Positions 941-60,262 of a stretch of 64,000 nt of DNA are shown here, piece by piece; position 1 is the stretch's first letter, and each line of letters begins with the position of its first letter. Under the pieces are notes generated by a model. It was not told the origin of the DNA. It searched no databases and saw only the letters and a list, made by a program, of their open reading frames with translations. The translations under genes were made by a program, and so were the position numbers. Source of the stretch: Prorocentrum cordatum (taxonomy: Eukaryota > Sar > Dinophyceae > Prorocentrales > Prorocentraceae); contig CAUYUJ010009446.1 of NCBI GenBank assembly GCA_963575745.1, positions 994,740-1,058,739 of the forward strand, written 5' to 3'.

Positions 941-1566
941 TCATGAGAGGAAGGACGAGGATGAGGATGAGGATGAGGATGAGGATGATGTTGATGCTGC
1001 TGATGATGATGACGATGATGATGATGAGGATGATGATGCTGCTGTTGCTGATGATGATACTGAGTAGGATGATGATGATGATGCTGATGGTGATGATGAT
1101 GATGATGCTGATACTGATGATGATGCTGATACTGATGATGATGATGATGATGAAGTTGATGAGGATGATCTGGTGGTGATAATGATGCTGATGATGATGC
1201 TGACGACGAGAATGCTGATGCTGATTCTGCTGATGATGCCAATGGTGAGCATGCTGCTGCTGATGATGATGTGGATGAGGATGATGATCATGCTGCTGAT
1301 GATGGTGATGATGATGACGATGAGGATGATACGTATGATGATGAGGAGGATGAGGATGCTGATGCTGCTGCTGCTGATGATTATGATGATGCTGATGATG
1401 AAGAAGATGATGATGTTCATGATGATGGTGATGTTGATGATGATGATGCTGATGGTGATGATGATGGTGATGATGTCAACTCTGATGCTGATGATGAGGA
1501 GGATGATGATGAGGATGACAACGAGGAGGATTATGATGATGCTGCTGCTGCTGCTGATGATCGCAC
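941..1566. repeat. GAT/GCT trinucleotide microsatellite (left flank of LINE 1)
   Basis: About 625 bp of nearly pure GAT, GCT and GAG triplets on the plus strand. It keeps all frames open (Asp-, Met-, Ser- or His-rich ORFs), which are not genes. It directly abuts the 3' end of the minus-strand LINE at 1567. The same triplets resume at 6575 beyond the element's 5' end. Confidence 0.9.
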
Positions 1567-1968
1567 TCCCCTGAGCGCGCCAGAGAGGGGGGCAGTTCAG
1601 CTGCCCTCTGCCGCGGGCCTCCTGATGAGCAGGCCCCGCACGCCGCGCCCCTTCTTGGCAATGTGGCGGGCACGCGCGCGCAGGAGAGGCAGCAGGCATT
1701 CGGGCCCGTACCTGTGCGAGCTCCTCAAGGAGTTAAAGGTAGAAAAGAGCAGGTCGTGGACAAGAAACAGAGAGAACAGCTGCTGACTAGACTGGCATGG
1801 CATAGTGCACAGCATACGCGCATCGAGGCTCTGATTCAAATATTCGACTGGCAGGAAGGGCAAAACAGAATGGAGCAAGCTCAGGACATGAGGGCAATCG
1901 AAGTAATGCTGGACGTGGTCGCCGCCTGTGGCCAGGCAACCGAAACGGCAGGTAAGACGGCCTTGCCT

Positions 1969-4900
1969 TTACCTGGCAGAGGTCGCCCACGCGTTGCAGA
2001 TGGTTTTGAGAATGGCCGCAGCCACAAATGGGCCGACGCGCGTGCAGGCAATTTGGAGCCTGAGCACCGCAAGGTCGATACTAGAGGCATCAGCAAAAGG
2101 AAAAGCGAACCGAATTCGATTGCCCAGGAGAAAACTCGCGGAGCTACAAGGGGCCTCAGAAAGCAATTTCTTCAACATCTGTCTCTGCAACTCGTGAGTG
2201 TCCTCATCGAAGTGGTTCCACGGCAGGGCAGTTAGTCGCTCGTAATTGTGAATCAGGTGGAAAACAATGGACTCGGCACGCCATGCCGGGTATCGCTTGA
2301 CCATCAGAACATCCAAGTCCTCTTCCTCAAGCTCATGAAAGCGCTTCCGAATGCTATCAAAAACCTTAGACCGAACAGCGACCCGATACATGGCAGCCTG
2401 ATTCTCCAGCACTAGGTTGCGCGGGGCAATGGGCCAATGCAACGCAGACGAGAGATTGCGGAGAAGATCAGTAGGGATGCTGTTGAAGGGGCATGCGGTG
2501 AGAGTCTGCAAACCTTTGGTTTCCATGCGAAGAGCGTCCTGCGATATGTAACATAGCTGCATCACGAAGGTGAGAACCGAGAAGGCCAATGAGTTATATG
2601 CATAGATACTTTGAGTAAGCCCAAGACGAAGCGACCGAACATGACGGACACGATTAATATATTTCTGAAGCGGAGCGGACCAGGATTTCCCGTTACCTCC
2701 AGGGCCCAGAAAGACACCCAAGACTTTGCCACTAGTGCCGTGCATAAGCGAGCGAACGTTGGTGCGAACGGACTCGAACAGGGCGAAATGCTGGTCGTCT
2801 GGCATCTCTTGCACGTGCACGATCATACACTTGGCAAGGTTCAAGAGCAGGCCAGTGCAACGGCTGGACCTAATAACATTCTTCAGCACAATCGGAACAG
2901 CGAGCAACAGGTTGGATGCCGAGATCCGGATGTCATCTGCAAAGGCACGAGGGGTAGCACAAACAGGAGCTAGCAAGTTTGACAATCGGCGCAGCAGCGG
3001 GTCGATGCATAACGCAAATAAAGCACCTGACAGCGGACATCCTTGTTTAATGCCTTGGGTGATCGAGTAGCCTGGAAACTTCTTTCCTGCTAGGCATATG
3101 TGTGTGTAAATACCGGTGTATAGGAACCGAATGGCATTCACGATATACATGGGTATGTTCATCATGATTAGCACATCTATGATCCAGTCGTGGCGCAGCG
3201 ACGGGAACGCGGCGCGGAAATCCAAGAGGAGTAGCCCAGCGTGCGGCATGCCGCGATAGCAGGCGTATTCAAGAATGTCTGCCTCAAGGCAGAGCAAGTT
3301 GTCGAGCATAGACCTCTTGCGCACGAAACCCGTCTGGGAGCCTAAGACGCTGTACTGGCATTGTTGGCTAAATGGTTCGCATATGGCCAATGGTACTATT
3401 TTGTTATCAGTGTTGCTGAGAGCAATAGGGCGCACCACAGACGCTTCCCGAGAGATCTCAGAGGTTCCAGCTTCGTGAGGGCAGATGGCCTTAGGGAGGT
3501 ATACCGTGAGAGACTCGTTGAAGCCTTTATGCGGGGGCCCATATGTAGGATTGTCCAATATAGCGAGATAAACTTGATACAAGGCATTGTGAGCAGCGTC
3601 TCCAGCGAACCGCCATGCACTGTAGGGAATTCCGTCAGGGCCAGTCGCGCTGTCCTTGCGGCTGACGAGCTTACCTATGAAGCTATGCAGGTCGAGCGTC
3701 CACTCGATACCTGGGGCAACCTGCTGAATCTCACTGCTCAACAGTGTCTTCTGGAAGTGGTATCCCCTGTCCTGAGGCTTCGCGGCGTGGACCCGCCCCC
3801 AGTGGGACGCAAGGTTCTGAGCACTGACTTCGAGATCAGGCGAGGGGTTCCCGGTGGGGTCGGGGACCGAAGCCAGAACGATTCGGCGCCTTTTGGGAGA
3901 CCACTGTCGCAGAAGCTGGTGCAACCTGAGGCCTCGATCGTCGTCGGGGGCTCCGCCACCTTCGACGTGTTCGCGAATTTCTCGCTGAAGCAGAGAATGC
4001 TGGAGCTCGGCCATTTCCCGATAAAAAGACACAGAATCTCTAAAACAACATTCATCAGCATGAACATGTAGACTAAGATGAGGAATAGCCTGGATACACC
4101 TCCGAACGTCCCAAGACTTGCCATCCCGAACAGCCCGTAGAAACTTAAGGTAAACCGACAACTTCTGCGCATCATTGTTGGGGCCTCGGAAGAACATGCG
4201 AGTCATCAGAGCATCCTTGGCAACATACATCGCGTCTTTGACGGACAGGAGGTACTCGAACGGGTCCCTGGGCATTTCAACCGAACTTATGGCAGCATCA
4301 ACCTCAGAACCAAAATCAGGATGTTTGGCAATCCAGGAGGGGATCGTCGGGGTAGTTCTGCCGCCAGGCGAAAACTGAAGCCAAACAGGAATATGGTCGC
4401 TCGGCTGGGCGACATCGTGAGCAAGACCTATGACACCGCTACTTGGTGTCGCATCAAGAATGTCGGTGGTGGCAGAAGAGATGTAGAACCTATCCAGGCG
4501 ACCAAGGCTGAGAGCACCGTCCTCCCTCCTCCCAGTCCGATGAGTGGGCTCCTGTTGGGCAACTTCAGCAAAGTGTCCGAAAGCCCGAGAAAACATGTGT
4601 AGAATAGCGGTCCTCTCAGGGGTGGGTTCCCTTCCGTCTGTGAACGTCCTCATCTCCCCCTCCTCCAAGAAGTTAAAATCGCCTCCCAAGATGACTGTGG
4701 CCTGATCAGCAGGCAGAGCGTGAGCAGCAACCGCGCGGATCACACGATCCTTCTCGACGTCGGAGAGGGTAGGGTCGAGGTGAAAGTTAATCAATTGCAG
4801 CGTGCCTTTCTCGCCTGTCAGTGTAACTGCTATGCATCGTCCATCGATAATGTTAACTACGTGGATGTCCTGAAAGAGCTGGAGCAAGGAAGGATCAATA

Positions 4901-5364
4901 GACATGGTAACGCCTCCCGCAGCCGCAGAAGAGCAAAAAGAGCCAAGGTGCGTGTGTGCTGGCACGTCACGATCCAGCGAGGAAAGATCTTCTTCGGTCC
5001 CGTGGGTTTCCTGCAAAAATACTACTTGAAAGCGTTGTGCAAGACTTCTGAAAATCTGCTGTTTCCGATGCTGTCTCTGTGGATCGCCGTAAACACTGCC
5101 AAAAAATGCACGAGTATTCCAAGAAGCAAGGCCCACAGCACGAGAAATAACAAATGGATGCCGCTGCTCAGCAAGAGCAGCTTCACCTCCCCCAGGAGAG
5201 TGTGGATCAGGAAGGTAGGGATCATGAATAGCTGGAGCATTCACAGGAGGAAGAGAGTCAGGCGGTGTCGAGGTGGCCTCCCCCCGTTCTCGCAGCAGGG
5301 CTCGCAAACGTTCAGGATCGAATTCGTCGTCACTATCGCTCCCAGATACTGGCTCACTCCGCCC
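1969..5364 (-). CDS. LINE 1 ORF2, AP-like endonuclease and reverse transcriptase
   Basis: Open from just after the TAG at 5365 to a stop at 1969, about 1130 codons, no internal stop. Counting from TTG 5307, the endonuclease (exonuclease-endonuclease-phosphatase fold) shows LASWNTR (60), LQE (98), GGDFNF (208), LDRFY (271) and SDHIP (303). The reverse transcriptase shows LLLLDFRAAFPSL (motif A, Asp696), GIKQGCPLSG (motif B, 752) and AFADDI (motif C, 788-793). Expected role: nick the target and prime reverse transcription from it. All catalytic Asp residues are present. No RNase H or C-terminal zinc knuckle is evident. No ATG-initiated start is near the beginning, so translation may depend on read-through or reinitiation. 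Confidence 0.88.
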   Translation of the reverse strand, partial: GRSEPVSGSDSDDEFDPERLRALLRERGEATSTPPDSLPPVNAPAIHDPYLPDPHSPGGGEAALAEQRHPFVISRAVGLASWNTRAFFGSVYGDPQRQHRKQQIFRSLAQRFQVVFLQETHGTEEDLSSLDRDVPAHTHLGSFCSSAAAGGVTMSIDPSLLQLFQDIHVVNIIDGRCIAVTLTGEKGTLQLINFHLDPTLSDVEKDRVIRAVAAHALPADQATVILGGDFNFLEEGEMRTFTDGREPTPERTAILHMFSRAFGHFAEVAQQEPTHRTGRREDGALSLGRLDRFYISSATTDILDATPSSGVIGLAHDVAQPSDHIPVWLQFSPGGRTTPTIPSWIAKHPDFGSEVDAAISSVEMPRDPFEYLLSVKDAMYVAKDALMTRMFFRGPNNDAQKLSVYLKFLRAVRDGKSWDVRRCIQAIPHLSLHVHADECCFRDSVSFYREMAELQHSLLQREIREHVEGGGAPDDDRGLRLHQLLRQWSPKRRRIVLASVPDPTGNPSPDLEVSAQNLASHWGRVHAAKPQDRGYHFQKTLLSSEIQQVAPGIEWTLDLHSFIGKLVSRKDSATGPDGIPYSAWRFAGDAAHNALYQVYLAILDNPTYGPPHKGFNESLTVYLPKAICPHEAGTSEISREASVVRPIALSNTDNKIVPLAICEPFSQQCQYSVLGSQTGFVRKRSMLDNLLCLEADILEYACYRGMPHAGLLLLDFRAAFPSLRHDWIIDVLIMMNIPMYIVNAIRFLYTGIYTHICLAGKKFPGYSITQGIKQGCPLSGALFALCIDPLLRRLSNLLAPVCATPRAFADDIRISASNLLLAVPIVLKNVIRSSRCTGLLLNLAKCMIVHVQEMPDDQHFALFESVRTNVRSLMHGTSGKVLGVFLGPGGNGKSWSAPLQKYINRVRHVRSLRLGLTQSIYAYNSLAFSVLTFVMQLCYISQDALRMETKGLQTLTACPFNSIPTDLLRNLSSALHWPIAPRNLVLENQAAMYRVAVRSKVFDSIRKRFHELEEEDLDVLMVKRYPAWRAESIVFHLIHNYERLTALPWNHFDEDTHELQRQMLKKLLSEAPCSSASFLLGNRIRFAFPFADASSIDLAVLRLQIACTRVGPFVAAAILKTICNAWATSAR

Positions 5365-5967
5365 CTATTCGCGGCGAAGCGCAGCAGTGACCAGCTCGGG
5401 CAGCTTGTCTACTTGCTCGTCGGTGAAGCCGTAGCGCTTCAAGTTGCCGCGGTTGGGCTCGACGTTCGGGTTGTCGGTCTCGAGGACATTCTGCAACACG
5501 ACGAGCTCGTCAACGAGGTCGCCGTTGACCAAGAAGCAGAGGCCCATGTACTTGTTGCATCGGGGCTGCGAGTCAGGACGCCATGTGCCAGCGTCGGTCA
5601 TGACCTGCTTGATGTGTTGCCAGACCTGGCCCAGCACCCAACCTTTCTTGCGGATGTCGATGGGTTCGTCGGTGCCGACCCGAAGCCGATGCCGAAAGCC
5701 ACTGCCATCTCCCCATTCTAGCGTCATGGCACGCAGCTGCAACAGGGCATTCTTGGCGTCGTCGGCGTCTTCGAAGATGATGACGTAAGCGTACTTGCAG
5801 CTCTTGGTGATCGCGCTGCACTTGTCGCGGTAGGTGGGCGAAAGTAGTGTCTTCAGGAAAGAGAAGTGCTTGTCGAATGCAGAAGCCATCAGCTTGACAG
5901 GGAACCCTCGCACCCAGAGCTTCCGCCTGTCAGCAGGCGCGGCGCTAGCTCCACGGGGCGTGGCCAC
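5365..5967 (-). CDS. LINE 1 ORF1b, RRM-like RNA-binding domain
   Basis: 200 residues in the same frame as the coiled-coil ORF above, starting from GTG 5967 or by read-through of the TGA at 5974. The N-terminal half has an RRM-like pattern: RNP2-like KLWVRGFPVKL near residue 16, then RNP1-like YAYVIIFEDADDAKNALLQL near residue 60. The rest is basic and Trp-containing and resembles the C-terminal part of LINE ORF1 proteins. The expected role is binding element RNA in the RNP. It stops at TAG 5365-5367, and the endonuclease/RT frame continues from the next codon without shift. I assign the RRM by pattern only. Confidence 0.6.
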   Translation of the reverse strand: MATPRGASAAPADRRKLWVRGFPVKLMASAFDKHFSFLKTLLSPTYRDKCSAITKSCKYAYVIIFEDADDAKNALLQLRAMTLEWGDGSGFRHRLRVGTDEPIDIRKKGWVLGQVWQHIKQVMTDAGTWRPDSQPRCNKYMGLCFLVNGDLVDELVVLQNVLETDNPNVEPNRGNLKRYGFTDEQVDKLPELVTAALRRE

Positions 5968-5973
5968 GGTCCC

Positions 5974-6360
5974 TCATGTGCTGGCGATGCCAGACGCCGT
6001 CGAAGGTGGCCGTGAAATCGTAGCGACAGAGGTCTTCAGCTCCTCGAGTGCGGCATTGATGACGCTGATCTTCTGGTCGGTCTGAGCGCTAAGTAGTGAA
6101 ACCGTCAGGCATGTGTCGACCATCTCGTCAGAGGCTTCGCCGCCCGTGATGTTGCCGTGACGCTGCTGCAGGGCGATGATCTGGTTCTGCATGTGCTCGA
6201 ATTTGATGTCCATCTCATTGCGCATGTCGGTCTTCATGCTCTCCATGTCTTTGGCGAGGCTGGCAAACTTAGCGTCGTGGGCATTGACGGTGGCTACGAC
6301 GGTGGACATTGATGCCAGCAGCTGATCCATCTTCTGGTCCATGGAGAGAGTGGCGGCCAT
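5974..6360 (-). CDS. LINE 1 ORF1a, coiled-coil protein
   Basis: 128 residues from ATG at 6360 (MAATLSMDQKMDQLLASM). The middle is a heptad-patterned coiled coil (residues about 5-65, with MDQLL, FASLAKDMESMKTDM and MQNQIIALQQRH), as in the trimerisation region of L1-type ORF1 proteins. It ends at TGA 5974-5976. The next codons stay open in the same frame into the RRM-like ORF, so coil and RRM look like two parts of one ORF1p. The frame is also open upstream to about 6564. If the TGA is read through or derives from CGA, this is the N-terminal module of a larger protein. Confidence 0.6.
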   Translation of the reverse strand: MAATLSMDQKMDQLLASMSTVVATVNAHDAKFASLAKDMESMKTDMRNEMDIKFEHMQNQIIALQQRHGNITGGEASDEMVDTCLTVSLLSAQTDQKISVINAALEELKTSVATISRPPSTASGIAST

Positions 6361-6534
6361 CGCGGCAGCCTGTTGGCAGGCAAAATGCTGTGCCGAGTGA
6401 AAACGTCCAGGGCTGAATCCTGGCTTTACGTTCCCGATGTGGTGTGAGTACGTGGAAATGCGGAGACCCTTGTCCTGGGGCCTCTCCAGGGTCTCTCTCG
6501 CGCGCAGCGGGCGCAGGCCACTTGAGACGGGGGG

Positions 6535-6552
6535 TTGAGTTCCCGATATGGC
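6535..6552 (-). other. Degenerate second SL-like copy
   Basis: Directly downstream of the exact SL, GCCATATCGGGAACTCAA aligns to the SL 3' part (GCCATTTTGGCTCAAG) with a few substitutions and a small insertion. Tandem intact-plus-relic SLs are the known signature of recycled (retroposed, then trans-spliced again) dinoflagellate cDNAs. The match alone is weak; the position, and the same layout at 53454 and 54266, support it. Confidence 0.5.
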
Positions 6553-6573
6553 CTTGAGCCAAAATGGCTACGG

Positions 6574-6574
<1 letters not shown>
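6553..6574 (-). other. Dinoflagellate spliced leader (DinoSL), exact copy
   Basis: The minus strand reads the whole 22-nt DinoSL (CCGTAGCCATTTTGG followed by CTCAAG, with T at the variable first base) without mismatch. In dinoflagellates this leader is added to nuclear mRNAs by trans-splicing. A genomic copy at the 5' end of a gene therefore means the sequence came from a reverse-transcribed mature mRNA. It is not an SL RNA gene: no donor GT or Sm-site context follows; a leader and an ORF do. The GCT/GAT microsatellite starts at the next base, 6575. Confidence 0.93.
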
Positions 6575-6605
<31 letters not shown>

Positions 6606-6652
6606 ATGTTGATGCTGATACCGCTGCTGCTGATGATGATGCTGATACTGCT

Positions 6653-6683
<31 letters not shown>

Positions 6684-6702
6684 AGGAGGAGGAGGAGGAG
6701 GA
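6575..6702. repeat. GCT/GAT microsatellite (right flank of LINE 1)
   Basis: Plus-strand GCT, GAT and finally GAG/GGA triplets, starting at the base after the SL. Same units and same strand as 941-1566, so the two tracts look like one array split by the LINE. Confidence 0.9.
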
Positions 6703-7500: not shown

Positions 7501-7664
7501 AAATATCATTATCCCGGCAAAGCAACCTAACATCGATGTGTAGGAGCATATCTGGAAGCATTCCCCTTAAGATTCGGATGAGAATCCAGTTGTAGAATTC
7601 TGCTGTTCTCGCAGTCGTAGTCGCATTCGCGATGACAGTCGCAGCGGCAACGGCAGTCGCAGTC

Positions 7665-9668: not shown

Positions 9669-10090
9669 TTCAAAATGTGGCCCGGGAATGGAATTCTGGG
9701 AACTCGAAGAACACGAAATGGACTACAATTGGCTCCGGGCATTCAAAATCATGCCCAGGAATGGAATTCTGGGAACTCGAAGATCACGAAGTGGCCTACA
9801 GTTGGCTCCGGGCATCCAAAATGTGGCCCGGGAATGGAGTTCTGGGAAGTCGAAGAACACGAAGTGGCCTACTGTTGGCTCCGGGCATCCAAAATGTGGC
9901 CCGGGAATGGAGTTCTGGGAAGTAGAAGAGCACGACGTGGCCTACAGTTGGCTCCGCGCATCCAAAATGTGGCCCGGGAATGGAGTTCTGGGAAGTCGAA
10001 GAGCACGAAGTGGCGTACAGTTGGCTCCGGGGATTCAGAATGTGGCCCGGGAGTGGAGTTCTGGGAAATCGAAAAGCACGAAGTGTGTGA
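9669..10090. repeat. 73-bp tandem repeat, array A
   Basis: Five to six units beginning CATCCAAAATGTGGCCCGGG and ending TTGGCTCCGGG, with single-base differences. The 73-bp period is not a multiple of three, so each unit changes frame, which argues against a coding role. Confidence 0.88.
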
Positions 10091-10404
10091 CTGTATGCGA
10101 AAAACGATCCCCCCTGGCAAACCCCAACGGCCCCCCAACGGCCCCAAACGGCTCCCCAACGGCTGCCCAGACCCCCCTGCGGAGTAATGTGCTGCTCTCT
10201 TTTTAGCCTATTAGAAACCTATCTGTCTTCGATGTTAGGTAAAATTATCCCGGCAAAGCAACCTAACAGCGATGTGTAGGAGCATATCTGGAAGCATCCC
10301 CCTTAAGATTCAGATGAGAATCCAGTTGTAGAGTTCTGCTGTTCTCGCAGTCGTAGTCGCATTCGCGATGACAGTCGCAGTGGCAACGGCAGTCGCAGTC
10401 ACAG

Positions 10405-12047: not shown

Positions 12048-12485
12048 TCAAAATGTGGCCAGGGAATGGAATTCTGGGAACTCGAAGAACACGAAGTGGC
12101 CTACAGTTTGCTCCGGGCATTCAAAATCATACCCAGGAATGGAGTTCTGGGAAGTCCAAGAGCACGAAGTGGCCTACAGTTGGCTCCGGGCATCCAAAAT
12201 GTGGCCCGGGAATGGAGTTCTGGGAACTCGAAGACCACGAAGTGGCCTACAGTTGGCTCCGGGCATCCAAAATGTGGCCCGGGAATGGAGTTCTGGGAAC
12301 TCGAAGACCACGAAGTGGCCTACAGTTGGCTCCGGGCATCCAAAATGTGGCCCGGGAATGGAGTTCTGGGAACTCGAAGACCACGAAGTGGCCTACAGTT
12401 GGCTCCGGGCATTCAGAATGTGGCCCGGGAATGGAGTTCTGGGAGGTCGAAGAATGGAGTTCTGGGAGGTCGAAGAGCACGAAGT
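12048..12485. repeat. 73-bp tandem repeat, array B
   Basis: Unit starts at 12191, 12264 and 12337 give an exact 73-bp period; outer units are more diverged. The last unit is truncated and followed by a partial repeat of GAATGGAGTTCTGGGAGGTC. Confidence 0.9.
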
Positions 12486-12657
12486 GTGTGACTGTTTGCG
12501 AAAAACGAGGTTCCCCGGCAATCCCCAACGGCCCCCCAACGGCCCCCCAACGGCCCCCCAACGGCTCCCCAACGGCTGCCCAGACCCCCCTGTGGAGTAA
12601 TGTGCTGCTCTCTTTTGACACCACTAGAAACCTATCAGTCTTCGCTGTTAGGTAAAA

Positions 12658-27117: not shown

Positions 27118-27187
<70 letters not shown>
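26565..27187. repeat. GA / GGA / GAT / TA microsatellite cluster
   Basis: GA and GGA tracts (26590-26680), GAT tracts (26785-26930), GA tracts (27010-27115), a 20-bp TA tract (27118-27137) and GA again (27138-27187). The last GA tract abuts the 3' end of the minus-strand gene fragment at 27188-28424. Confidence 0.88.
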
Positions 27188-27191
<4 letters not shown>

Positions 27192-28424
27192 GGCTGTGGC
27201 AGTACTTCGCCAGCAGCCTCGCCGCCGATGCGACTGGGCTGTGGCAAGTGGATGGTCCGGCTCCAGATGGAGAAGGCAAAGTCCAGCACATCGCGGGTGT
27301 ACCAAACCTCGCCTATGCCCATCTTCAGCTCGGACCCCGAAGCCTCTGCAGCCTCCGCAGCTGCTCCAGCTCCTTCTCCGTCTTGTCGATATCCTCGCTG
27401 GCCTGGCTGCGCAGCGCCTGCAGCCTGCACATGGACTCGGCCGAGCGGGGAGCCTTCATGAGCAGGAGAGGTACTAGATCAGCTCGGTCAGTTGGTCCTT
27501 CTTGGCAGTGGCCTTGTCGATCAGGGCCTGGAGGCTGGCACCAGCCTGAGCGGTCGATTCCAATGGCCCCTCCCGCGCAGGATTGGCCTCCTTCTGCTTG
27601 TGGGTCTCCTTGTTATTGTCCTTGTTCGCCTTCTTCAGCCTGGTCAAGAAGCTCGTCCACTGGTTGCTTCTCGTCACCGTCGTCGCTGGAGAGGTTGAAG
27701 AACTGGCAGCTGCCGATGCCTGCTGCCTGCGAATGTCCCGCATCTTGATGAACTCCTCCCTGTTCTGGCTGATGACCTTGCGCTCCTCCACTTGGGCGGC
27801 TGCGCGCTGGGCCCCCTGCTTCAGGAGGGTTTCCGGCGGAGCTGACCTCTTGCAGCAAGGGCAGCTCGAGCGGAACCCGAAGTTCACACCTTCCGCTTGA
27901 GCGAGTCCGAGCATGGCGTGCACCCCCTAGGTGGCACGCGCTGACCACTCGGCACCGGCTCCGCTTTCTTGCTGCCCTCTAGGTGCTTGTGGGCGCTGGC
28001 CTTGACTCGCTTCCGACGGCGCCAGCCCGTGGCCAGCTCCTTCTTCTTGGCTTTGGCCTTCGCGGTGAGCTGCTTCTTCACGGGTCTCGCTTTTGCTTAG
28101 GCCCTCACCCAGGGCCTGAGCGGTCGACGCGGAGACAGCGGCTTCACCAGCCACTGGCCCCCGACTTTGACCTTCCGCGGCGGCGAGCGCCAGCTGGACA
28201 TGGGGGCCCACCTGCCCTCCATCCTGCCCAGCCAGCCCGTCCTCGATGATCAGCTCGAAATCACCAAGGCTGTCTCTCAGCTCCGTGAGGAGCCGCCTGT
28301 CTATCAGGTGCACTGGGGGCCTCACTTTCATGCCGCCAGCGCCATCGGCTCCGACGCGCTGCGCCGCTCCGAATCGCGCGCGCCGACACTGGGGTGCAAC
28401 CACCTCCAGCCGAAACGGCTAGGA
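27188..28424 (-). pseudogene. Retroposed gene fragment (ORF1-like) with degenerate SL at its 5' end
   Basis: Between a GGA microsatellite (from 28425) and a GA microsatellite (to 27187). The minus strand begins with a degenerate SL (28404-28424: TCCTAGCCGTTTCGGCTGGAG). Coding: MKVRPPVHLIDRRLLTELRD from about 28331, then a shift near 28090 into a Lys-rich stretch (VKKQLTAKAKAKKKELATGW), then a shift back near 27925 into FGFRSSCPCCKRSAPPETL and a helical region ending LTELI at 27474. A short coiled-coil ORF (27325-27459) follows. Basic, CPCC-containing and helical: it may be a LINE ORF1 or a host retrogene. Frameshifts make it a pseudogene unless introns explain them. Confidence 0.5.
28404..28424 (-). 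other. Degenerate DinoSL relic
   Basis: Aligns to the SL with one deleted G and four substitutions; it keeps TAGCC, TTT and GGCT. The GGA microsatellite begins at the next base, exactly as at the three stronger SL copies, which supports the call. Confidence 0.5.
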
Positions 28425-42360: not shown

Positions 42361-42425
42361 GGATATATATATATATATATATGTATACATATACATATAT
42401 GTATACATATACATATATATATCGC
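42361..42425. repeat. TA-rich microsatellite (3' flank of LINE 3)
   Basis: TATATA with GTATACATATACATAT variants. The LINE 3 3' end lies next to it at 42426. Confidence 0.9.
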
Positions 42426-42462
42426 TCGTACATGAGAGGCGCCACAGGGGTCCTTCCGAGGC

Positions 42463-43986
42463 CTACGCGGGCACTCTAGTCAACTCCACGAGCGCCACAG
42501 CAGCCCGTCGAATTTCGTACAGATGGCCAGTCCACTCCTCTTGATGGGGCGACGGCGGACGGGAAACACGTGCGGTGTTGTACATATGGAACGCCATGAC
42601 TATGGCCTCCACAGTTTCAAGAGTCGGGGCCCCATCCAGCCCAATCCTAGTCAGCACACACTTCGGGGGGCCACGGTCCCTAGCGTAGGCCAAACCCCAT
42701 AAAGCATCGTACCGCATATAATGGACAAAGACATCAGGGGCTGGAATCAACGGGGGCTCACGACAGCCGAATTTACATGATTGTACCCCGCCAGCGGTAT
42801 GAAGCCTGGCCGATGTTAGCCAAGCACCAGCTATTGTCTTCAGAACAGCACTCTGCCAGGCCGGGTTGACCTGCTCAAGGATAGCACGGAGAGGAGGCCA
42901 GGAGTGGCGGACAAGCTCGAGGCCCCATGACTTCAGACGCCGCGCCAGCACCACGGGAAGGACGTCAGGAAAGAGGGGGGAGTGCAAGGAACGAGAAATA
43001 GTTTTCTGGACCCGCACGCGCGCTGCCCGTTGCACGGCAGCGGCGCGCTCCTCGGCCAGAGCGCGCCACGCCAGGGCGGCATGGCGCACGATCCTGCCCT
43101 CATTCACGAGGCCCTCGAAGGCGGCAGCCAGGCCCGCAACCGCTGGCTGCGTCCTCCAGTGGACTGGCGCGCGACGCGCCTGGCCGATCGCCAGGAGGGG
43201 GCCGTGGTCCACCGTCTGCTCCTCCAGCCACGCGTGGAGGCTCTGCCAGTTGGTGACCGTGGAGGCAGCCGCTCTCATGAGTGACGCGAGTCCCGTGGCG
43301 AGCATTGACCTGATCCTCAAGGAGGGAGCCCACTGCCCAAGACTGAGTAAATCGTCTCTGGACAAGCTCTGCGACGGCATGCGCCATATCTTCGTGATCG
43401 CCCACGCCCCCCGCTCCAGCAGTTCCTTGGGCACCCGCGCCAGCTGCTGGAGGTGCCCCAGCACGGGAAGGATCCTTTGGTTGTAGAGCTTGGCCGAGAG
43501 CGAGACATGTGCCCCGCACTGGGCCAGGTCGAGGACCCGAGCCTGCCACTTCGCGGCCGCCTTCCTCCATGCGTCAAGCTCCGATGCTCCTGGCCCAACC
43601 ATGTGCCCCATGTACCCGGCGCAGTCCTTAACCGACATGGTGGCCCAGCTCGGGGGCCAGTCCTGCAGCCACTTCACGAGCTCCGACTTGGACTCCTCCG
43701 TTACGGGGCCGTCCAGGGGGATGAGCACGCACTTGGCCAACTTCAGCCGAAGCCCTGCCAGCACTCGGGCCGCCTCGAACGCCCGCCTCATGCCAAGGAG
43801 GAGACGCCTCGATCGGAACGCTGCTCCCACATCGTCCGCGCACACGCGCAGGGCCGAGTACTCACTCCTGTCCGTGTAATTCTGCATATGGTGGATGAAC
43901 GGGTTCATGATGATCGCCCAAAGTGAGCCTGACGACGGGCAGCCCTGTGCCAGCCCACAAGTGATGCATGCGAAGTGAGCCATCAT
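42463..43986 (-). pseudogene. LINE 3 reverse transcriptase, C-terminal part
   Basis: 507-codon frame: motif B CGLAQGCPSSGSLWAIIMNP, motif C RVCADDVGAAF, thumb region (GLRLKLAKCVLIPL), a long helical tail and a Cys/His cluster CKFGCREP...VHYMRYDALW near residue 415 that resembles the C-terminal zinc knuckle of LINE ORF2. It stops at 42463. Motifs B and C are intact; the only visible damage is the frameshift against the N-terminal part and the missing 5' region. Confidence 0.8.
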
Positions 43987-45097
43987 GCCAGCTATCTGGA
44001 TCTACGCTGTGGGCAGCCAATACAGCGCAGTAAGCGTAAAGAGCAGACCCCCCATCGAAGCCTGAGAAGACCATCATCGCAAAGAGCCACTCGACACTCA
44101 GCGACGGGAACGCGTCGCCAAAGTCGCACAGCGCCAGCACCAGCTTGAGGACGGCCACATAATCCTGGTAGCCCGCAGCGCGAGCCTTCGTGTCCAAGAG
44201 CGTGATGTTGTCAAGGAAATTCCGCCCTCGCAGAAACCCTCGCTGTGGAGCGGGCGAGGCGCAATCCACCGCACCTTTGATGCTGAAGTTGACTGCCGCA
44301 GCCACCAGTTTGCAATCTGAATTCTTGAGCGCAATCGCCCGAGTGGACCCTGGCGACCTATAGAGGCCGTCGGAGAGGTCCTCCTCGAAAGACCCCTTGG
44401 GTAGGAAGGCCATCAGGTGATCGTTCCAGTCGACGGGCGGCGGAAGCCCTGCCGCTATGTCAAGCACCACATCCTCGATGGAGGCCACCGCCGCTGGGCA
44501 CGCCCGCCATGCCAGGCACGGCAGCCCGTCTGGGCCAGGGGCGGACTCCTTAGCCCTCTCCGCTGCCAGCAGCAAGGATCGCTTGTCAGGCGGCAAGATG
44601 TCCGCCACCGCTAGCCTCGGAGCGTGCTCCTTCATGTAGCGCTCGGCCAACCTCTCCCAGTCATCAATCTGCGCCTTGGTCTGCAAAATGGGGGCCCAAT
44701 GCTCACGTAGCGCACCCGACATGTCCTCCTGGCCGTGCAGCACCTGGACCCCGCCACCCTCCGCAGGCACCGTGATTCCCTGAAGCTTCAGCGAGCGCCC
44801 GAAGGGCGCCCACAATGCTGCCCGACGATTGAGCTTCCTGCGAAGAGCGTTGACCGCCCTAAATGATGAGCTGTCGAATGCCTTCTTCTCCCTCTCGTCT
44901 AGTGCCGCCATGCGCGCTTCGAAGTGCGCCTGCTGCTCCTGAGCGGAGTCCCTGGCGAAGGTCGGGGGGTGAATCAGGCCCACCTCCGTCTCAGTCACAT
45001 CGAGATATGCACGGGCGAACTCACAGGATTGAAGGGGCCGTCGCCCAAGGGCCACGTCGTCTCGCCAGACAGCCCTCGACATCGACCTGCATACCAT
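43960..45097 (-). pseudogene. LINE 3 reverse transcriptase, N-terminal part
   Basis: Frame from 45097: a helical linker upstream of RT (HFEARMAALDEREKKAFDSS), then APGPDGLPCLAWR (fingers), STRAIALKNSDCKLVAAAVN, QRGFLRGRNFLDNI and motif A LCDFGDAFPSLS with its Asp. After SVDPDSWHDG the frame loses sense; RT continues in another frame from about 43986. It belongs to the same broad RT type as LINE 1 (compare LLLLDFRAAFPSL) but clearly another lineage. Confidence 0.8.
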
Positions 45098-45123
45098 CAG
45101 CTTGGTTTCGCTGAGCGGGTGCT

Positions 45124-45143
45124 ACATATATATATATATATAG

Positions 45144-49480: not shown

Positions 49481-49486
49481 GGAGTC

Positions 49487-53453: not shown

Positions 53454-53475
53454 CTTGGGCTAACATGGCTACGGA
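53454..53475 (-). other. DinoSL copy (19 of 22) with a second relic downstream
   Basis: Minus strand CCGTAGCCATGTTAGCCCAAG matches the SL except for three bases. The next ~19 bases (TCCGAGCGATAGGCTCAGG) align to the SL again with small gaps. Microsatellite starts at 53476. Confidence 0.8.
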
Positions 53476-54265
53476 GGAGGATGATGATGATGAGGGGGAG
53501 GAGGACGAGGACAAGGACGAGGAGGATGACGAGGAGGAGGACGAGGAGGAGGAGGAAGAGGTTGAGGATGGAGGAGGAGGATGAGGAGGAGGAGGACGAG
53601 GACGCGGAGGAGGAGAGGAGAGAAGGGGAAGAGGAGGAGGAGGAGGAGGAGGAGGAGGAGGAGGAGGAGGAGGAGGAGGAGGAGGAGGAGGAGGAGGAGG
53701 GGGAGGAGGGGGGAGGAGGGGGAGGAGGAGGAGGAGGAGGAGGAGGGGAGGAGGAGGAGGAGGAGGAGGAGGAGGAGGAGGCGGAGGAGAGGAGGAGGAG
53801 GAGGAGAGGAGGAGAGAGGAGAGAAGGAGACAGGAACAGAGGAGGAGGAGGAGGCGGAGAGAGGAGGAGGAAGGAGGAGGAGAGAGGAGGAGGAGGAGAA
53901 GAGGAAAGGAGGAGGGAGGAGGAGGAGGAGGAGGAGGAGGATGAGGAGGAGGAGGAGGAGGAGGAGGAGGACGAGGAGGAGGAGGAGGAGGGGAGGCGCA
54001 ACAGCAGCAGCAACAGCGGAGCAGGAGCAGGAGGAGGAGGCAGGCGGAGGAGAGGAGGAGAGTCGAGAGGAGGAGGAGGAGAGGAGGAGGAGGAGGAGGA
54101 GGAGGAGGAGGAAGGAGAGGAGGAGGAGGACGAGGAGGAGGAGGAGGAGGAGGAGGAAAAGGAGGAGAAGGAGGAGGAGGAGGGAGGAGGGAGGAGGAGG
54201 AGGAAGAGGAGGAGGGAGGAGGGAGGAGAGAAGAGGGAGGAGGAAGGAGGAGGAGGAGGAGGAAG
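53476..54265. repeat. ~790-bp GGA/GAG microsatellite shared by two divergent LINEs
   Basis: Near-pure GGA with GAC, GAT and CAGCAGCAG interruptions. It is bounded exactly by two SL copies pointing outwards (53475 and 54266). Glu/Arg/Gly ORFs over it are artefacts. Confidence 0.95.
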
Positions 54266-54287
54266 TCCGTAGCCATTTTGGCTCAAG
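54266..54287 (+). other. Dinoflagellate spliced leader (DinoSL), exact copy
   Basis: Plus strand matches all 22 SL bases with T at the variable first position. The GGA array ends at 54265. It marks the 5' end of a retroposed, trans-spliced LINE mRNA. Confidence 0.93.
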
Positions 54288-54308
54288 TCCGTAGTGCTTT
54301 GGCACAGG
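54288..54308 (+). other. Degenerate second SL copy
   Basis: TCCGTAGTGCTTTGGCACAG aligns to the SL with a few substitutions and one gap and keeps TCCGTAG and TTTGGC. It follows the exact copy without spacer. Confidence 0.7.
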
Positions 54309-54432
54309 ACCTGACCTCACTGGCGCGGGGGGGTGACGGCCCCTTCAGTCACGCCTCGTCGTTCCGTCGGGCGAGGGATTTTGGCTTTCTCTGTATCTAC
54401 GACCCGTCAGGCTCGGATGTCCCCGCAGCGGC

Positions 54433-55530
54433 ATGGCGGCGGCTCTTTGGACACCTGGCAGTGTCATCACAAGCGGGCGGTGCGGTTACCGCTTCAACTT
54501 TCTCTCGCGCACGCACTGCCGCGCGCGCGGCCGCCCCGCGCCCTCGGGCCCAGCGCCTTCGGCGGCGGGCCCGCGCGCCCTCGGCGCATGGCTGCGAGGG
54601 CCGCCCCAGGCAGGCGGCGGCGGTCAGCGTGGCGGCGGCGCAGGTGGCGGCGCCGGTGGCGGCAAGGGTTCCTCCTCGCAGGGCAAGTTCTCGTGCCTGG
54701 ACCCTGCGGCCATCGGCGTCTACGCGAAGCTCGAGGCCGCGGACTTCGAGGCGGTCTCTGCGGAATGGAAGCCCAAGCTGGTCGCCAAGGTGGTCGCCCA
54801 CCGCGCGCTGCTGGCGGGGGAGCCGCGCGCCGAGGCGCGCTCGGCCAGGATCGAGCAGGACATCTTGGCGGACAATCGCGACAAGGCCCAGCGGGCCTAC
54901 GATCGTGCTCAGGCTGCAGCGCTCAAGGCGGTGGCGACAGCAGCGGCTGCCAAGGAGGAGTTCGACGAGGCCAAGGAGCGCTGCGCCGAGGCCGCAGCGC
55001 GGGCAGCCAAGGCCTGCCATGGCATGGCTTCGAGCACCAGCCCCGCGCTCGCGCTCTCGGCGCTGGCGGACGGGCTCAAGGCAGACCCCAGGCTGGCGGA
55101 CTTCGCGCAGCAGTTGCAGGCGCTGGTGCCCACCTTGCAGGAGCTGTCGAAGCCGCCCGAGCCCGACGTCATCATTCCTGATGGTGATGCTGGCGATGCG
55201 CCCGTGGCTGCCCCAGGCGGCGCTACGTCTCCTGCGGCTGCTGCTCCAGCCGCCCCCGCCATCGCCTGCGAGCGCGAGGCTGGCGCCATGGCGCAGGCCG
55301 GGGCCGAGGCACAGCGCGCCGCCGGCGCCGCCGCGGCGCGAGCTAGAGCCTAGCTGTCGCGCGCCGAGCTCCTGCGCTGGATCGATCAGCAGCGCGAGGG
55401 GCAAGAAGCTCACGAAGCAGCTGAGCAGCAGGGAGGCAAGCATGAGTTGGTCACGGGCATCTTCGACCAGCTCGTGGAGGCTGCCAAGAAGAAGGCTCGT
55501 GTGGATGGCGTGGCCGAAGAGGATATTTAG
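54433..55530 (+). pseudogene. LINE 2 ORF1, coiled-coil protein with in-frame TAG
   Basis: ATG at 54433. An Ala/Gly/Pro-rich N-terminus is followed by FSCLDPAAIGVYAKLEAADF, a long Ala/Lys/Glu coiled coil (QRAYDRAQAAALKAVATAAA, residues about 145-205) and a Pro/Ala linker, to TAG at 55351-55353. The frame continues open as LSRAELLRWIDQQREGQEAH, KHELVTGIFDQLVEAAKKKA to a second TAG near 55528. As in LINE 1, a single stop interrupts an otherwise intact ORF1. I infer an RNA-binding, multimerising ORF1p; no RRM is visible. Confidence 0.6.
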
Positions 55531-55539
55531 CCTGAGTCC

Positions 55540-56200
55540 TGTCACTGTCAACGTCGCAGGGCGCAGCGGCTTGGAGGCTGCGCCCAGGCGTGATCGAATT
55601 CGTGGTGCGCGCGCCGTCGCTGTGCAGGAGCATCGCATGTTGCGCGCTCAGTGTGACATTTGGAAGCACAAGCTCCGCGCTTCAGGTTGGAGAGCCGCCT
55701 TCGCCGCCGCCATTGCCACCGCGAGCGGCGCCGTCGCAGGCGGACTGCTCCAGCGTGTTCCAGCCGCGTCGGGGCTGGCCGAGGTGGAGTGCGTTGACAG
55801 TTCGTTGTGCAATGCCAGAGTGGACTCCTGCATGGTCATGGGCTCACGCCCTTGGGATTCCTGTGGGTCAATGTGTAATTGCACCATTCTGACGGGCTTT
55901 CCAAGAAAAGCTGGGGTACCCTCACAGATGTTGGACGAGCAGCCCAGTCTGTTGGTTTACCTTTTTGTGATCTGTGGCGACTTTCAGATACCACCTGAGG
56001 AGCTTCAGGGCAGTCTGTGGGTCGATGCGATCGACGGGGTCTGCCTCTTCCCGTCTGCCGCCGCTTTCACTGATGCCTCGGCCTCTGCTGGGCGCACTAT
56101 TGATTATTTCGTTGTCTCGCAGTCGCTTGCGCACAATGCCACCCTAGAGATTGTTTCTGATGCGGGCACGGCGCCTCGCTTTCCTGTTGTGCTCGCGTGA
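55540..56200 (+). pseudogene. LINE 2 endonuclease
   Basis: In one frame: AVAVQEHRML (catalytic QE), WKHKLRASGWRAAFAAAIAT, ASGAVAGGLL, then VICGDFQIPPEELQGS (GGDFN site, with GDF kept), SAGRTIDYFVVSQSL (IDYF motif) and a stop at 56200. A stretch around 55830-55900 looks shifted. The fold is exonuclease-endonuclease-phosphatase; expected role is target nicking. Confidence 0.68.
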
Positions 56201-56599
56201 CCATCGCTACCGCAGGCTGGGCTTGAGCATCGCACCGCGCAGGTACCTCGTCGACTTCCCCAGATGCCCCCATCGGGTGCAGGAGGGCGGACCCCGCCCC
56301 GCGTTGGACGCACTGCGCCCAGCAGATGGAGGGTGCCTCTTTGAATGGGAAGTGGCAGATGTGGGCCACCAGCGCTGAGTTCGATTTAGCTGAAATGCAC
56401 GACCTCACCCCTGCAGCGAATCCCGAGTATTTTGGCAGAGCGCAACCGTGGCAGTTCGCACAGCGCAGGCCACTGTTCCCACAGTCGCTAGCTTTCCCTG
56501 TTCTCAGTCCGGCCGCGCTCTGGTGGCGCCTGCTCGCTCGTTGTTTCGAAGGCCTAGCTCGCTGGCGGCCTCCCAACTTAAGGGCAGGCGCCATGCGGC

Positions 56600-58159
56600 T
56601 AGGACGAAGTGCCCAGGCGAAGCACAGGTCTAGTGGTGTGTCGCCGGAAGAAGCTGAGCCATAGATACTGCTGCTTCAGCTGGCCTTCTCGCTGCCGTAT
56701 GCGTTGGCATCTGCCGCGGCGAAGGTCACTGGCGCTCGGGCTATTGCTACATTCAAAGAAGCCGAGCGTGGCAAGCAAGCAGGCTGGGGAGATTGGGCAC
56801 GACGGCGCTTCATCGACGGCGCCGCTGCGCTGCGCGCTTCCTTCCAAACCTGCCACTCCCTGGCACGCCAGCTCCATTGCAGCTGGCAAGCCCTGTGCGC
56901 TTCAGGAGGAGGTTGAGGCTCTGGAGCGGGAGCGGGCTGGGCGGGGGAATGTTGGGCATGCTTCTGGCCAGATCAGCTGGCCATCGGATATAGGCCCACC
57001 CTTTGCGAGGCCCACGCTAGCAGAGCTCAAGGCCTGCGTGCGCTCGTTTCCTCGCCGCTCAGGCTGCGGGTTTGACCAGCTGTGTCCTCGGCAGCTGCTT
57101 ACGTTATCTGATGAGACAATCGCAGTTTTCCTTTACATTCCTCGTCGAGGTAGAGGTTACCTGCACCTGGCCAGCCATCTGGACCAATCTAGTTTTTCTT
57201 TCAAAGCGCGATGGTGGTTTTCGCCCCATCGCGCTCATCCACATCTTAGCGCGCGTTCAAGGACGGCTGAGGACGCCGCTGGTAGCGAAGTGGCAGCAGC
57301 AGCATGATCGCAGTTTTTGGTGGTCCACGGCTGGGCGGTCGTCGGGCAAGTTGGTATTGATCCAAGCTAGCAGCGCTGAGTGGGGTCGCGCGCGAGGTTT
57401 TTCAAGCGCTCTCATCCTCCTCGGCCTTGCCAAGGCTTTCGAACATATCAGACATGATGTGTTATTGCAGTCGGCGCTGCGCACAGTGTTTCCTGTGCGG
57501 CAGCTCGTGTTATTGGTCGAACGATATCGTTGCCCTCGAGTGCTCGCCCTTGGCAATGCCGCGTCTGCTCCTGCGCGCACCCTGCAATCCGTTCCTCCAG
57601 GTTTCCATTTCGCAACTTTGATGCTACAGCTGATGCTTCTAGCACCCGTGGATGCAGTGCAGGCTTCTTTCCCCATGCGCATATTGGCAGCGTGGTCGAT
57701 GATTTTGGGCTGCAGAGGCTGGGCCGCGAAAAGGAGGTCGTGCTCGAGCTCGCTGGGGCCGCGCGCAAGCTGCGCGTGCAGCCTAGCAAGGTCAGTTTGC
57801 CTGTCACCTTAAACAAGAGTCGTGTTGTGGCCTCCCCCCCCGGCCTCCGTGAGAGCCTCGAGGCCACGGTCCGTTTCGTCAGACTCAAGGGCGTTCGCAC
57901 TGAGAGGAATATTGGGGTCGATTTTGCCGCTGGAAAAGTGCACGAGCAGTACGCGCGCGTGAGCCGCAAGCAGCCTGCGTGCGCTCGAGCGCGCAAGCTA
58001 TTCACTTTGTCCAGTTTTGTGCGCAAGCGCCAACTGCGCAACGTGATTCGCAGTGCTTCCCTTTCGCCGCCTGCACGCGGGTGCAAGGTTTTTGGCGCTA
58101 CAGCGCCGATCTTAGACAGGCGCGTATGCAGCGAGCGCGCGTGCACGCGCATAGTTTAG
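56600..58159 (+). pseudogene. LINE 2 reverse transcriptase, catalytically broken
   Basis: Pieces in different frames: LAELKACVRSFPRRSGCGFD (56.99-57.10 kb), then FLSKRDGGFRPIALIHILAR (from 57205), motif A region ALILLGLAKAFEHIRHDVLL where the catalytic Asp reads Gly, a motif B-like region VPPGFHFATLMLQLMLL, and, after a shift, motif C HIGSVVDDFGLQRLG (57680-57720), continuing to 58159. With the first Asp lost this RT cannot be active as written. Confidence 0.75.
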
Positions 58160-58548
58160 ATGGTAAGCCGGTCACTTTGATGTTTATGCTCGGTGGTCGC
58201 CGTGGTATCGACCCTGCTTTCGAGTTGCAGTGCGCGCCGCTGCCTCAGCTATCCACCGCAGTTTGGGAGCAATGGCAGCTGCGTGCGATGATCACGCAAG
58301 GGTTGCGAGATGCGGTTGACAGGCTTCGCGGTAATGGCAACCCTTGGGCGAGTATCCGAGGCCCCTTCTCTGCCTGCGCAGCCACGGCGCTCCGCCTCGG
58401 CATTGACGCGCGAGATTTTGTTTGGCGACGCCCCACTGCGGGCGAGATCTCTGCGCAGCTGCGCGGCCCGCGCACTGTCAGCAAGTGGCTTACTGGTGTA
58501 GTGCAACAGTGGTTATGGGAAACATGGCCTCTAGAGAGGGCATCCCCG

Positions 58549-58597
<49 letters not shown>

Positions 58598-59540
58598 GTG
58601 CAATCTTCAGCCTCTGCACGACCTGCTTGCCTCAAAAGCCCTGCGAGCCGACGAGAAGGCCTATCTCAGGAGCGTTGTGCGCGGGGGGCAGCGGCCTCGA
58701 CGCGGGCAGTGGATGGCGCAATATACGGCCGAGCCTTACTGTCAGTTGTGTCGCGAGGCTCCTGGCACGCTGCTTCACGGGCATGCGAGCTGCGGGGGCA
58801 GCCGCGAAGTCGCCGCTGGTGAAGCCGCGCCCGAGTTTTTAGATTCCGTGGTCAGAGCGAGCGTTAACCCCCTCCCTCTCCTGTTCGCCGAGAGGCTCCT
58901 CGTCCCTATCCCCTTCCCTCCTGCCACCTCCCATCCCGACAGGTGGTTTGGTGGAGGCCCCACCGAGATGTCAGGACGCGTTTTTCTTGGCGGCAGCTGG
59001 GTGGACCAGCGCCTACCGTCACGCGCGCAAGCAGTCGGATGGGCCATTGTCAGTGTGCAGCCCAAGTACCCTTTATCGTGTCAGTTCCGCATTGTGTGGT
59101 ACGGCCTCGCACGTCTGTCAGGACACGGATGTTGCCGAACTGTTTGCCTTCTATCGTGCTCTGCAGCACAGCATGCCCGGCAGCGTTTTTTGCTCGGACT
59201 CGGCGTTTGTGCACGACGGAGTCCATCTGGGTGGTCAGGCATTATGTTGCTCTTCGCGTGCCGCCTGGTCAAGGCCGTGGGCCCAGGTCTGGCTGCGCAT
59301 TTCGGACTGGGGAGGAGCTGATAATATCGTGATCCGCAAAGTGAAAGGACATTGTACAGAAGCTCGCATCCAGTCTGGCCTGTCCTCGCGCTTCGAAAAA
59401 GAAGGCACTGCTCATGCTGGCGACTGGGCCCAGTGGGTTGCCTCGAGGGCCCGCGTTCCTCTGAGCTCCGCGAGACCCACAAGGCCAAGGCCCTGGTGCT
59501 CGCTAGGTGGGCTCGCTGGGTTGCCCGCATAGGCCCGCGC
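58160..59540 (+). pseudogene. LINE 2 thumb and RNase H region
   Basis: After RT, helical sequence (AVWEQWQLRAMITQGLRDAV) runs to a 46-bp CT tract at 58549-58594 that inserts Ser-Leu dipeptides. RNase H follows: DTDVAELFAFYRALQHSMPG (Glu), VFCSDSAFVHDGV (Asp), IVIRKVKGHCTEA (KVKGHC) and AHAGDWAQWVA, 59120-59450. Catalytic pattern mostly kept; frame breaks lie upstream. Role: removal of RNA from the hybrid. Confidence 0.7.
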
Positions 59541-59972
59541 ATGTGTGACCTCGACTGTGAACACGTCTCAAAGAAGCAGCTTGTTGCTCGAGGCCAAGGG
59601 GGTGCGAATCGCCCCGTGCCTGGTTTAGTTGTCGAGCCACCGTTGCCCGTTGCACCGCGCAGTCTCTCACGAGCCGATTTGGCTTCTGTGCGCGTGCAGC
59701 TCGCCGACGAGAGAGCGCACGTGATGCATCCCTTCGCCGTTGTTGTGGTGTACCGTGTGTGTGTGTTGTGTGGCCTGGGTGGGGTTAAGATCTTTGCGAA
59801 CCTATCTCTCGGCTGCCGAGGACCTCCTGCACCTGGCACCTGGGGTGCCCGCGTGCTGGCTGGCCTCACCCGCTCGCCTGCCAGGTTCCAAGTCAACCGT
59901 GTCTGGCGGTATTTAGCTGAACCTTTGCGCGCCGCCTCGGTCATCAGGGCTGGGGTGGTGCAACCCACCTGA
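59352..59972 (+). pseudogene. LINE 2 C-terminal region
   Basis: Open frame ending at 59972: ALVLARWARWVARIGPRMCD, VEPPLPVAPRSLSRADLASV, HPFAVVVVYRVCVLCGLGG with a CxxC pair, then RFQVNRVWRYLAEPLRAASV. It overlaps the RNase H end in another frame, so the true junction needs one shift near 59480. CVLCG may be a zinc site. Confidence 0.5.
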
Positions 59973-60078
59973 TGGGTTGCACTGTTTCGGGAGGCGCCAC
60001 CCGCCTCTGGCCATGGCCATGCGGTGGCGCAAGTGGCACGTTGCGCGGACGAACTCGTTCGCGTTCAGGCTGGGTCGA

Positions 60079-60262
60079 GGAGGAGGAGGAGGAGGAGGAG
60101 GAGGAGGAGGAGGAGGAGGAGGAGGAGGAGTAAGAGGAGGAGGAGTTACGACGAGTCGTCAAATGATGATGATGAGGAGGAGGAGGAGGAGAAGGAGGAA
60201 GAGGAGGAGGAGGAGGAGGAGGAGGAGGAGGAAGAGGAGGACGAGGAGGAGGAGGAGGAGGA
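60079..60262. repeat. GGA microsatellite (3' flank of LINE 2)
   Basis: GGA/GAG with a short ATGATGATG; same unit and strand as 53476-54265. Confidence 0.92.

Follow-up and report, generated by a model that had tools for sequence, protein, structure and literature searches.

Long interspersed nuclear elements (LINEs) that insert specifically into microsatellites or telomeric repeats are known from animals, among them Dong, Waldo, Mino, Kibi and TRAS/SART, and the elements SLACS, CZAR and NeSL insert into spliced-leader genes. Relicts of the dinoflagellate spliced leader (DinoSL) and DinoSL retrogenes were reportedly described by Slamovits and Keeling in 2008. An excerpt of PMC4640811 gives (TG)n-specific Togen as an example of a simple-repeat-specific LINE, the leader itself is given as DCCGTAGCCATTTTGGCTCAAG in part of PMC7245778, and section 7 of PMC6050394 treats the retroelement driving dinoflagellate retroposition as unknown, with long terminal repeat (LTR) elements favoured. 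Here, a 64,000-nucleotide stretch of the Prorocentrum cordatum genome (the window; contig C9446, positions 994740-1058739, G+C content 61.5%) was analysed, and the genome was searched for relatives (4,128,499,153 bases in 21,875 contigs). The window holds three elements, designated LINE1, LINE2 and LINE3, which very probably represent non-LTR retrotransposons with family-specific simple-repeat targets, namely (ATC)n for LINE1, (GGA)n for LINE2 and (TA)n for LINE3, with the 5' end of both LINE1 and LINE2 being the leader of the host.

As with the animal repeat-specific LINEs, one simple-repeat unit is associated with each LINE and related families differ in unit; unlike those elements, the host is a dinoflagellate, the 5' end is the host leader, and ATC, GGA, TA and CCT families occur in one genome. 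SLACS, CZAR and NeSL also link a LINE with a spliced leader, whereas here the LINE RNA would carry the leader and the target is a microsatellite. A 5' genomic leader, stacked CCATTTTGGCTCAAG relicts and the probable copying of trans-spliced RNA are features in common with DinoSL retrogenes, as portrayed in parts of PMC6050394, PMC12014239 and PMC7245778, but in the case of LINE1 it is the reverse transcriptase (RT) that the copied RNA encodes, and insertion is into simple repeats. The trypanosomatid L1Tc/ingi elements are likewise LINEs in a host with spliced-leader trans-splicing; excerpts of PMC8190864 and PMC4035085 describe for them a 5' promoter of their own, Pr77, accompanied by a ribozyme in L1Tc, and abundant unspliced transcripts, whereas here the leader forms the 5' end. 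No microsatellite-specific or leader-headed dinoflagellate LINE was named in the titles and abstract openings listed by searches of the open-licence literature. LINEs whose 5' end derives from a host leader appear to be new, whereas microsatellite-specific LINEs are already known in animals.

LINE1, LINE2 and LINE3 in the window

The three elements, with their open reading frames (ORFs) and flanking tracts, are arranged as follows.

1562..6573, minus strand: LINE1, a leader-headed LINE with 5' spliced leader, ORF1 region and ORF2; 29 further copies have the same 3' end
6553..6573, minus strand: exact spliced leader, 5' end of LINE1 (the T at 6574 is leader position 1)
About 5365-6400, minus strand: ORF1 region of LINE1
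5364-1969, minus strand: ORF2 of LINE1 (endonuclease and RT)
1562, minus strand: 3' end of LINE1, ..GGGGAGTGCG
1544..1561, minus strand: target-site duplication of LINE1, 3' copy, ATCATCAGCAGCAGCAGC
6575..6592, minus strand: target-site duplication of LINE1, 5' copy, 18 bp
941..1561, no strand assigned: GAT/GCT tract, target, downstream of LINE1
6575..6702, no strand assigned: GCT/GAT tract, target, upstream of LINE1
54266..60076, plus strand: LINE2, headed by the spliced leader and a 22-nt relict leader, with degenerate RT and an RNase H match; 3' end ..GGCTGGGTC
About 57200-57640, plus strand: degenerate RT of LINE2, weak match
Within 58843-59532, plus strand: RNase H match of LINE2
53473..54265, no strand assigned: GGA tract upstream of LINE2
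60077..60262, no strand assigned: GGA tract downstream of LINE2
42423..45122, minus strand: LINE3, a 5'-truncated LINE with RT in two frames; 3' end ..TACGAGCG
42410..42422, minus strand: target-site duplication of LINE3, 3' copy, ATATATATATGTA
45123..45135, minus strand: target-site duplication of LINE3, 5' copy, 13 bp

LINE1 runs from its 3' end at 1562 to its 5' end at 6573/6574 and is adjoined at both ends by GAT/GCT tracts, with neither poly(A) nor spacer, much as a preliminary description of the window had proposed with ends only a few bases away (1567/6574). The same description had placed LINE2 between GGA tracts and LINE3 between TA tracts, and within the window both placements proved correct. 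Under a strict rule (15 nt with 2 mismatches), ATC, GGA or TA repeat accounts for no more than 0.2-1.2% of positions, whether in the window or at 20 other loci, and three matching pairs are therefore unlikely to arise by chance. The duplications flanking LINE1 (18 bp) and LINE3 (13 bp) are both interrupted; with a few bases of slack permitted at the 5' junction, 5 of 601 downstream positions match too for LINE1 and 1 of 92 for LINE3.

Analysis of LINE1 ORF2 against Pfam revealed RVT_1 (E 9e-19) and Exo_endo_phos (E 6e-9) domains; a search of NCBIfam returned nothing for LINE1, and the closest solved structures are R2 and LINE-1 proteins. The RT match of LINE3 (E 1e-5) lies below the curated cut-off, yet LINE3 is related to LINE1 (23-26% amino-acid identity). 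An apurinic-type endonuclease (APE) was found neither in the LINE2 ORFs tested nor in the 5'-truncated LINE3, which starts somewhat before its RT domain. Rfam gave no match in the window at the gathering threshold. A public protein (P0001) that is 99% identical to LINE1 ORF2 lies on an ENA contig whose 5,104 bases roughly equal one element in length, and a pure CT tract (22.5 copies) occupies positions 58551-58595 within LINE2.

The hallmarks of non-LTR retrotransposons are present in the form of an RVT_1-type RT related to LINE RTs (in LINE1, in LINE3 with a match below the cut-off, and weakly in LINE2), target-site duplications, 5' truncations and a fixed 3' end, while the APE of LINE1 and its specific repeat target correspond to those of the APE-type site-specific LINEs of the R1 and Tx1 clades. 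Membership of the Dong/R4 clade was rejected, because LINE1 has an APE-type domain whereas that clade is characterised by a restriction-like endonuclease without APE. The genomic leader and relicts at the 5' end are those expected of a DinoSL-tagged retrogene; the idea of a copied cellular gene was discarded, given that LINE1 encodes RT and endonuclease.

Copies across the genome

It is the copies elsewhere in the genome that settle the association of these LINEs with simple repeats. Searching the genomic DNA with LINE1 yielded 227 candidates. Thirty of them, including the window copy, were scored, and both ends were fetched for all 29 non-window copies. The 3' end is identical in 30 of 30, and in all 29 non-window copies, which lie on 29 different contigs, ..AGTGCG is followed by ATCAT. 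Under the strict rule (ATC)n was recorded at 26 of the 29 3' flanks, against a background of 0.3-0.4%, and the opposite strand (GAT) at none of the 29; these insertions agree in unit, strand and phase. When a single mismatch is allowed, the leader stands at the 5' end of 27 copies (26 exact), the remaining two being 5'-truncated (C1576) or interrupted by an assembly gap (C17683), and an ATC-type repeat precedes it in 26 of these 27. In nineteen of the 29 copies the part that matches the window copy does so at 98-99% identity, indicating recent movement, unlike the LINEs of Symbiodiniaceae, which are reported as old in part of PMC8045281.

Interrupted LINE1 duplications of 18-23 bp were observed in seven copies, the window copy included, and the informative ones elsewhere are those of C9224 (23 bp), C1576 (21 bp), C19395, C3736 and C390 (20 bp each) and C15832 (18 bp). 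The tract often continues past the duplication with interruptions of its own, and the truncated C1576 still has the repeat on its 5' side. Together, C1576 and C13299 suggest that approximately ATCAT(C) at the nick may be enough for LINE1. In the 3' flank of C13318 (locus L053), a second leader-headed sequence lies about 35 bp downstream of LINE1 in the same ATC tract, as a nested use of the target.

The LINE2 search gave 618 candidates, of which 35 were scored, and ends were read for ten copies picked because both ends matched. Among these chosen copies, GGA-type repeat was seen by eye at both ends in ten of ten, imperfectly so in C15240 and C975, and C14422 and C17602 show interrupted duplications; the leader, with up to three mismatches, is present in nine (four exact). 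For LINE3, 15 of 41 rows were left out as not reaching the 3' end (internal matches, nearly all from distant relatives). GATAT opens the 3' junction in 20 of the 25 non-window matches that do reach it, and C1113, C20927, C21869 and C13761 have imperfect TA or CATA in the 3' flank. TA-type repeat was noted by eye on the 5' side as well in nine of 13 5'-truncated LINE3 copies, and an 18-bp duplication, again by eye, in C1113.

More distant relatives were drawn from an RT search of the genome, in which scores were obtained for 150 of 25,237 candidates and extended sequence was read at 20 loci. The distant LINE termed family A has a recurrent 5' end other than the leader; TA tracts occupy seven of its eight 3' flanks, and the eighth shows an approximately 14-bp duplication, by eye, beside a TA tract. 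A LINE1-like relative (L020/L100) has CCT on both sides, its 3' end ..GTGCG being followed directly by CTCCTCC. That LINEs which are related and resemble one another at the 3' end (..GCG) occur in different units points to a radiation of targets rather than indifference to them. At L014 (780-1000), the 5' junction of a TA-targeted LINE copy is an approximately 30-bp inverted repeat around the TA tract, as judged by eye. Viral contigs were also searched for relatives; 27 stretches fitted the pattern and none was confirmed.

Spliced leaders at the 5' ends

The spliced leader is the most informative feature of these elements. LINE1 and LINE2 both begin with an exact 21-mer of the dinoflagellate leader, CCGTAGCCATTTTGGCTCAAG, with no occurrence in 100 shuffles, and the dinoflagellate host named in the preliminary description is confirmed by it. 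All three leader matches with up to three mismatches in the window follow a microsatellite, and two of them flank one GGA tract. The third such match and a weaker candidate are as follows.

53454..53474, minus strand: decayed spliced leader with 3 mismatches, abutting the other end of the GGA tract upstream of LINE2 and followed by an apparent second relict; the unit points left
28404..28424, minus strand: sequence resembling the spliced leader (6 mismatches), immediately preceded by a CCT repeat; weak

The unit headed by the former (49480-53474, minus strand) has TCC repeats on its sense strand at the head and near 49480. Endonuclease-like stretches were seen in it by eye, and two of its ORFs that were tested gave no Pfam match. 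The latter possibly heads an old and much decayed unit (26687-28424) bounded by a second CCT tract at 26687.

Across the genome the exact leader occurs at 14,218 places, and a reversed control pattern at none; part of PMC8045281 gives 496 and 244 putative leaders for two Symbiodinium genomes, obtained with another search method. Forty leaders, taken at regular steps from the first 100 places listed, served as a sample that is not random genome-wide. Simple repeat fills the 30 nt upstream in 22 of the 40, against 3.3% expected by chance at a random position. When the rule is relaxed to tandem trinucleotides covering 30% or more of the 39 nt upstream, repeat precedes 32 of the 40 (CCT 21, GGA 10, ATC 1; other 8), against 4.1% by chance, and at least two tandem trinucleotide units end within 3 nt of the leader in 28 of the 40, a count made without a control. 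Among the sequences downstream of the 40 sampled leaders, 13 group into five clusters and 27 stand alone. Two leaders at CCT (L176 and L178) are followed by the LINE1 5' region, and L161 and L164 head a common sequence in CCT and GGA, which are opposite strands of one repeat.

The position of the leader joint varies among near-identical LINE1 copies, and comparison with copies that keep the unspliced context revealed that four of five internal joints directly follow an AG (GCCGAG, GGCCAG, TAGTAG and GTCGCAG). Leaders are stacked in the 15-nt form in 10 of the 26 LINE1 copies with an exact leader, eight of them double and two triple; this form is known from dinoflagellate transcripts, according to part of PMC12014239. 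A leader set at varying AG acceptors, and sometimes stacked, suggests that the RNA that moves is trans-spliced. The ATC strand lacks AG, so the nearest acceptors lie within the leader itself; GGA contains AG, and LINE2 keeps a full 22-nt relict. As far as DNA can tell, the pattern fits re-splicing in each cycle.

The leader pattern was found in three contigs in all of the viral and bacterial collections. One, filed as Dehalococcoidia (L002, 1-60), starts with (TCA)n and then an exact dinoflagellate leader; it comes from another sample and is probably a chimera. A second contig with the same filing (L003, 4334-4354) contains, as judged by eye, an apparent dinoflagellate leader RNA gene beside 28S-like sequence and is probably contamination. 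The third, an AT-rich viral contig (L001, 2746-2913), has two exact leaders, one heading a more GC-rich stretch, with no microsatellite directly upstream. Elsewhere in the window, a large CAGCCT satellite (7508-12657) consists of two near-duplicate blocks, each with a 73-bp repeat array.

Alternative explanations, a candidate cycle and its meaning

Fixed 3' ends, repeat targets, duplications (mostly of 18-23 bp where measurable), leader heads and variable acceptors are established for these elements. That a single LINE lineage accepts any simple repeat, as the preliminary description had supposed, would accord with the three units occupied by three LINEs of one window, with the relatedness of LINE1 and LINE3, and with the LINE1 5'-region relatives at CCT (L176, L178) and the L161/L164 sequence in CCT and GGA. 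However, the unit hardly varies in close families (29/29 ATCAT for LINE1, 10/10 GGA-type for LINE2, 20/25 ATAT for LINE3), and this explanation is considered decidedly improbable; at family level it is ruled out by the copies examined, with switching of targets at clade level remaining part of the reading in which each family has its own target. The tabulation of copy ends that had been proposed gave one unit per family and variety between families (ATC, GGA, TA, CCT), and the proposal of simple-repeat targeting as such is upheld by the same copy counts. Target-site duplications, a further proposal, are present within the repeats, whereas expansion of the repeats from those duplications is not needed, given the tract-specific interruptions.

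Many LINEs end in short tandem repeats, and the tracts might conceivably be products of the elements, with a repetitive tail added at the 3' end and the 5' side filled by expansion or recombination. RTE elements are reported, in an excerpt of PMC2887409, to generate microsatellite families in Lepidoptera, and perfect ATC tracts are indistinguishable from tails. Against this, copy-specific interruptions are common to both flanks of one insertion, the tract often continues past the duplication with interruptions of its own, and the repeat is found on the 5' side even of truncated copies (C1576 and nine of 13 LINE3). Duplications that carry the tract's own interruptions indicate insertion into pre-existing repeats, and on this ground the explanation, now very improbable, was rejected. 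It is hardly plausible that insertion is random and that only copies in harmless repeats survive: repeats make up approximately 10% of the window and insertions into genes would be lost, but the single-base precision and phase of the 3' junction (29/29) and the family-specific units are unexpected from survival alone. Misjoining of contigs at simple repeats, where assemblies fail and where N gaps do occur (C17683 at the LINE1 5' end, L091 at the family A 5' end, C975 at the LINE2 3' end), is scarcely credible and was rejected in view of an identical, precise 3' junction in 29 LINE1 copies on 29 contigs, six of them with copy-specific interrupted duplications.

A number of observations weigh against family-specific targeting with leader-derived 5' ends. 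The RT match of LINE2 is weak (E 0.13) and its RNase H match (E 7e-4) is below the curated cut-off, and the LINE label is less firm for LINE2 as a result; the strict rule passes only six (5') and seven (3') of the ten LINE2 copies, and one of these (C18858) starts inside the leader. For LINE1, the majority of duplications fall in perfect repeats and say nothing about length, C13299 has no duplication and sits within an ATC-containing minisatellite, and the flanks of C15645 differ by one AGC unit. Five of the 25 LINE3 3' junctions are not GATAT, that of C14548 not being TA-like at all; four of the 13 truncated LINE3 copies (C13364, C17922, C3136 and C20927) have unique 5' flanks, and a scripted test found a duplication in only two of the 13 (10 bp each). 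The fifth internal leader joint (GAGG/GCCAGG, the slash marking the joint) is one base off AG, and trans-splicing is read here from scars in DNA rather than from RNA.

If the elements do have family-specific targets and leader-derived 5' ends, a cycle can be envisaged in which transcription from outside the element would give a precursor RNA, onto which the host would trans-splice its 22-nt leader at an AG lying within the previous leader or close to it. The nuclease of the element would nick the repeat, and the RT, priming on the nicked strand (target-primed reverse transcription), would copy the RNA up to the first base of the leader. Use of the AG of CTCAAG would simply replace the leader, use of the AG of CCGTAG would leave a 15-nt relict, and in (GGA)n the full 22-nt relict could be left through use of a flanking AG. 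The host leader would thereby restore a complete 5' end in every cycle, at the cost of slow 5' erosion via deeper acceptors. Whether a guild of LINEs shares out the microsatellites in this manner, one unit per family and with 5' ends obtained through host trans-splicing, so that stacks would record rounds of retrotransposition and the same machinery, acting on further leader-capped RNAs, would have made the DinoSL retrogenes, is put forward tentatively, as a possibility that falls somewhat short of an even chance.

The elements are a concrete candidate for what drives spliced-leader-tagged retroposition in dinoflagellates, with a readable signature in the form of a leader beside a microsatellite together with a short duplication, and genomic leaders counted as retrogenes may include many LINEs in such genomes. 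They also offer a natural series of related nucleases with differing simple-repeat targets, and would represent a LINE life cycle in which the 5' end comes from the host.

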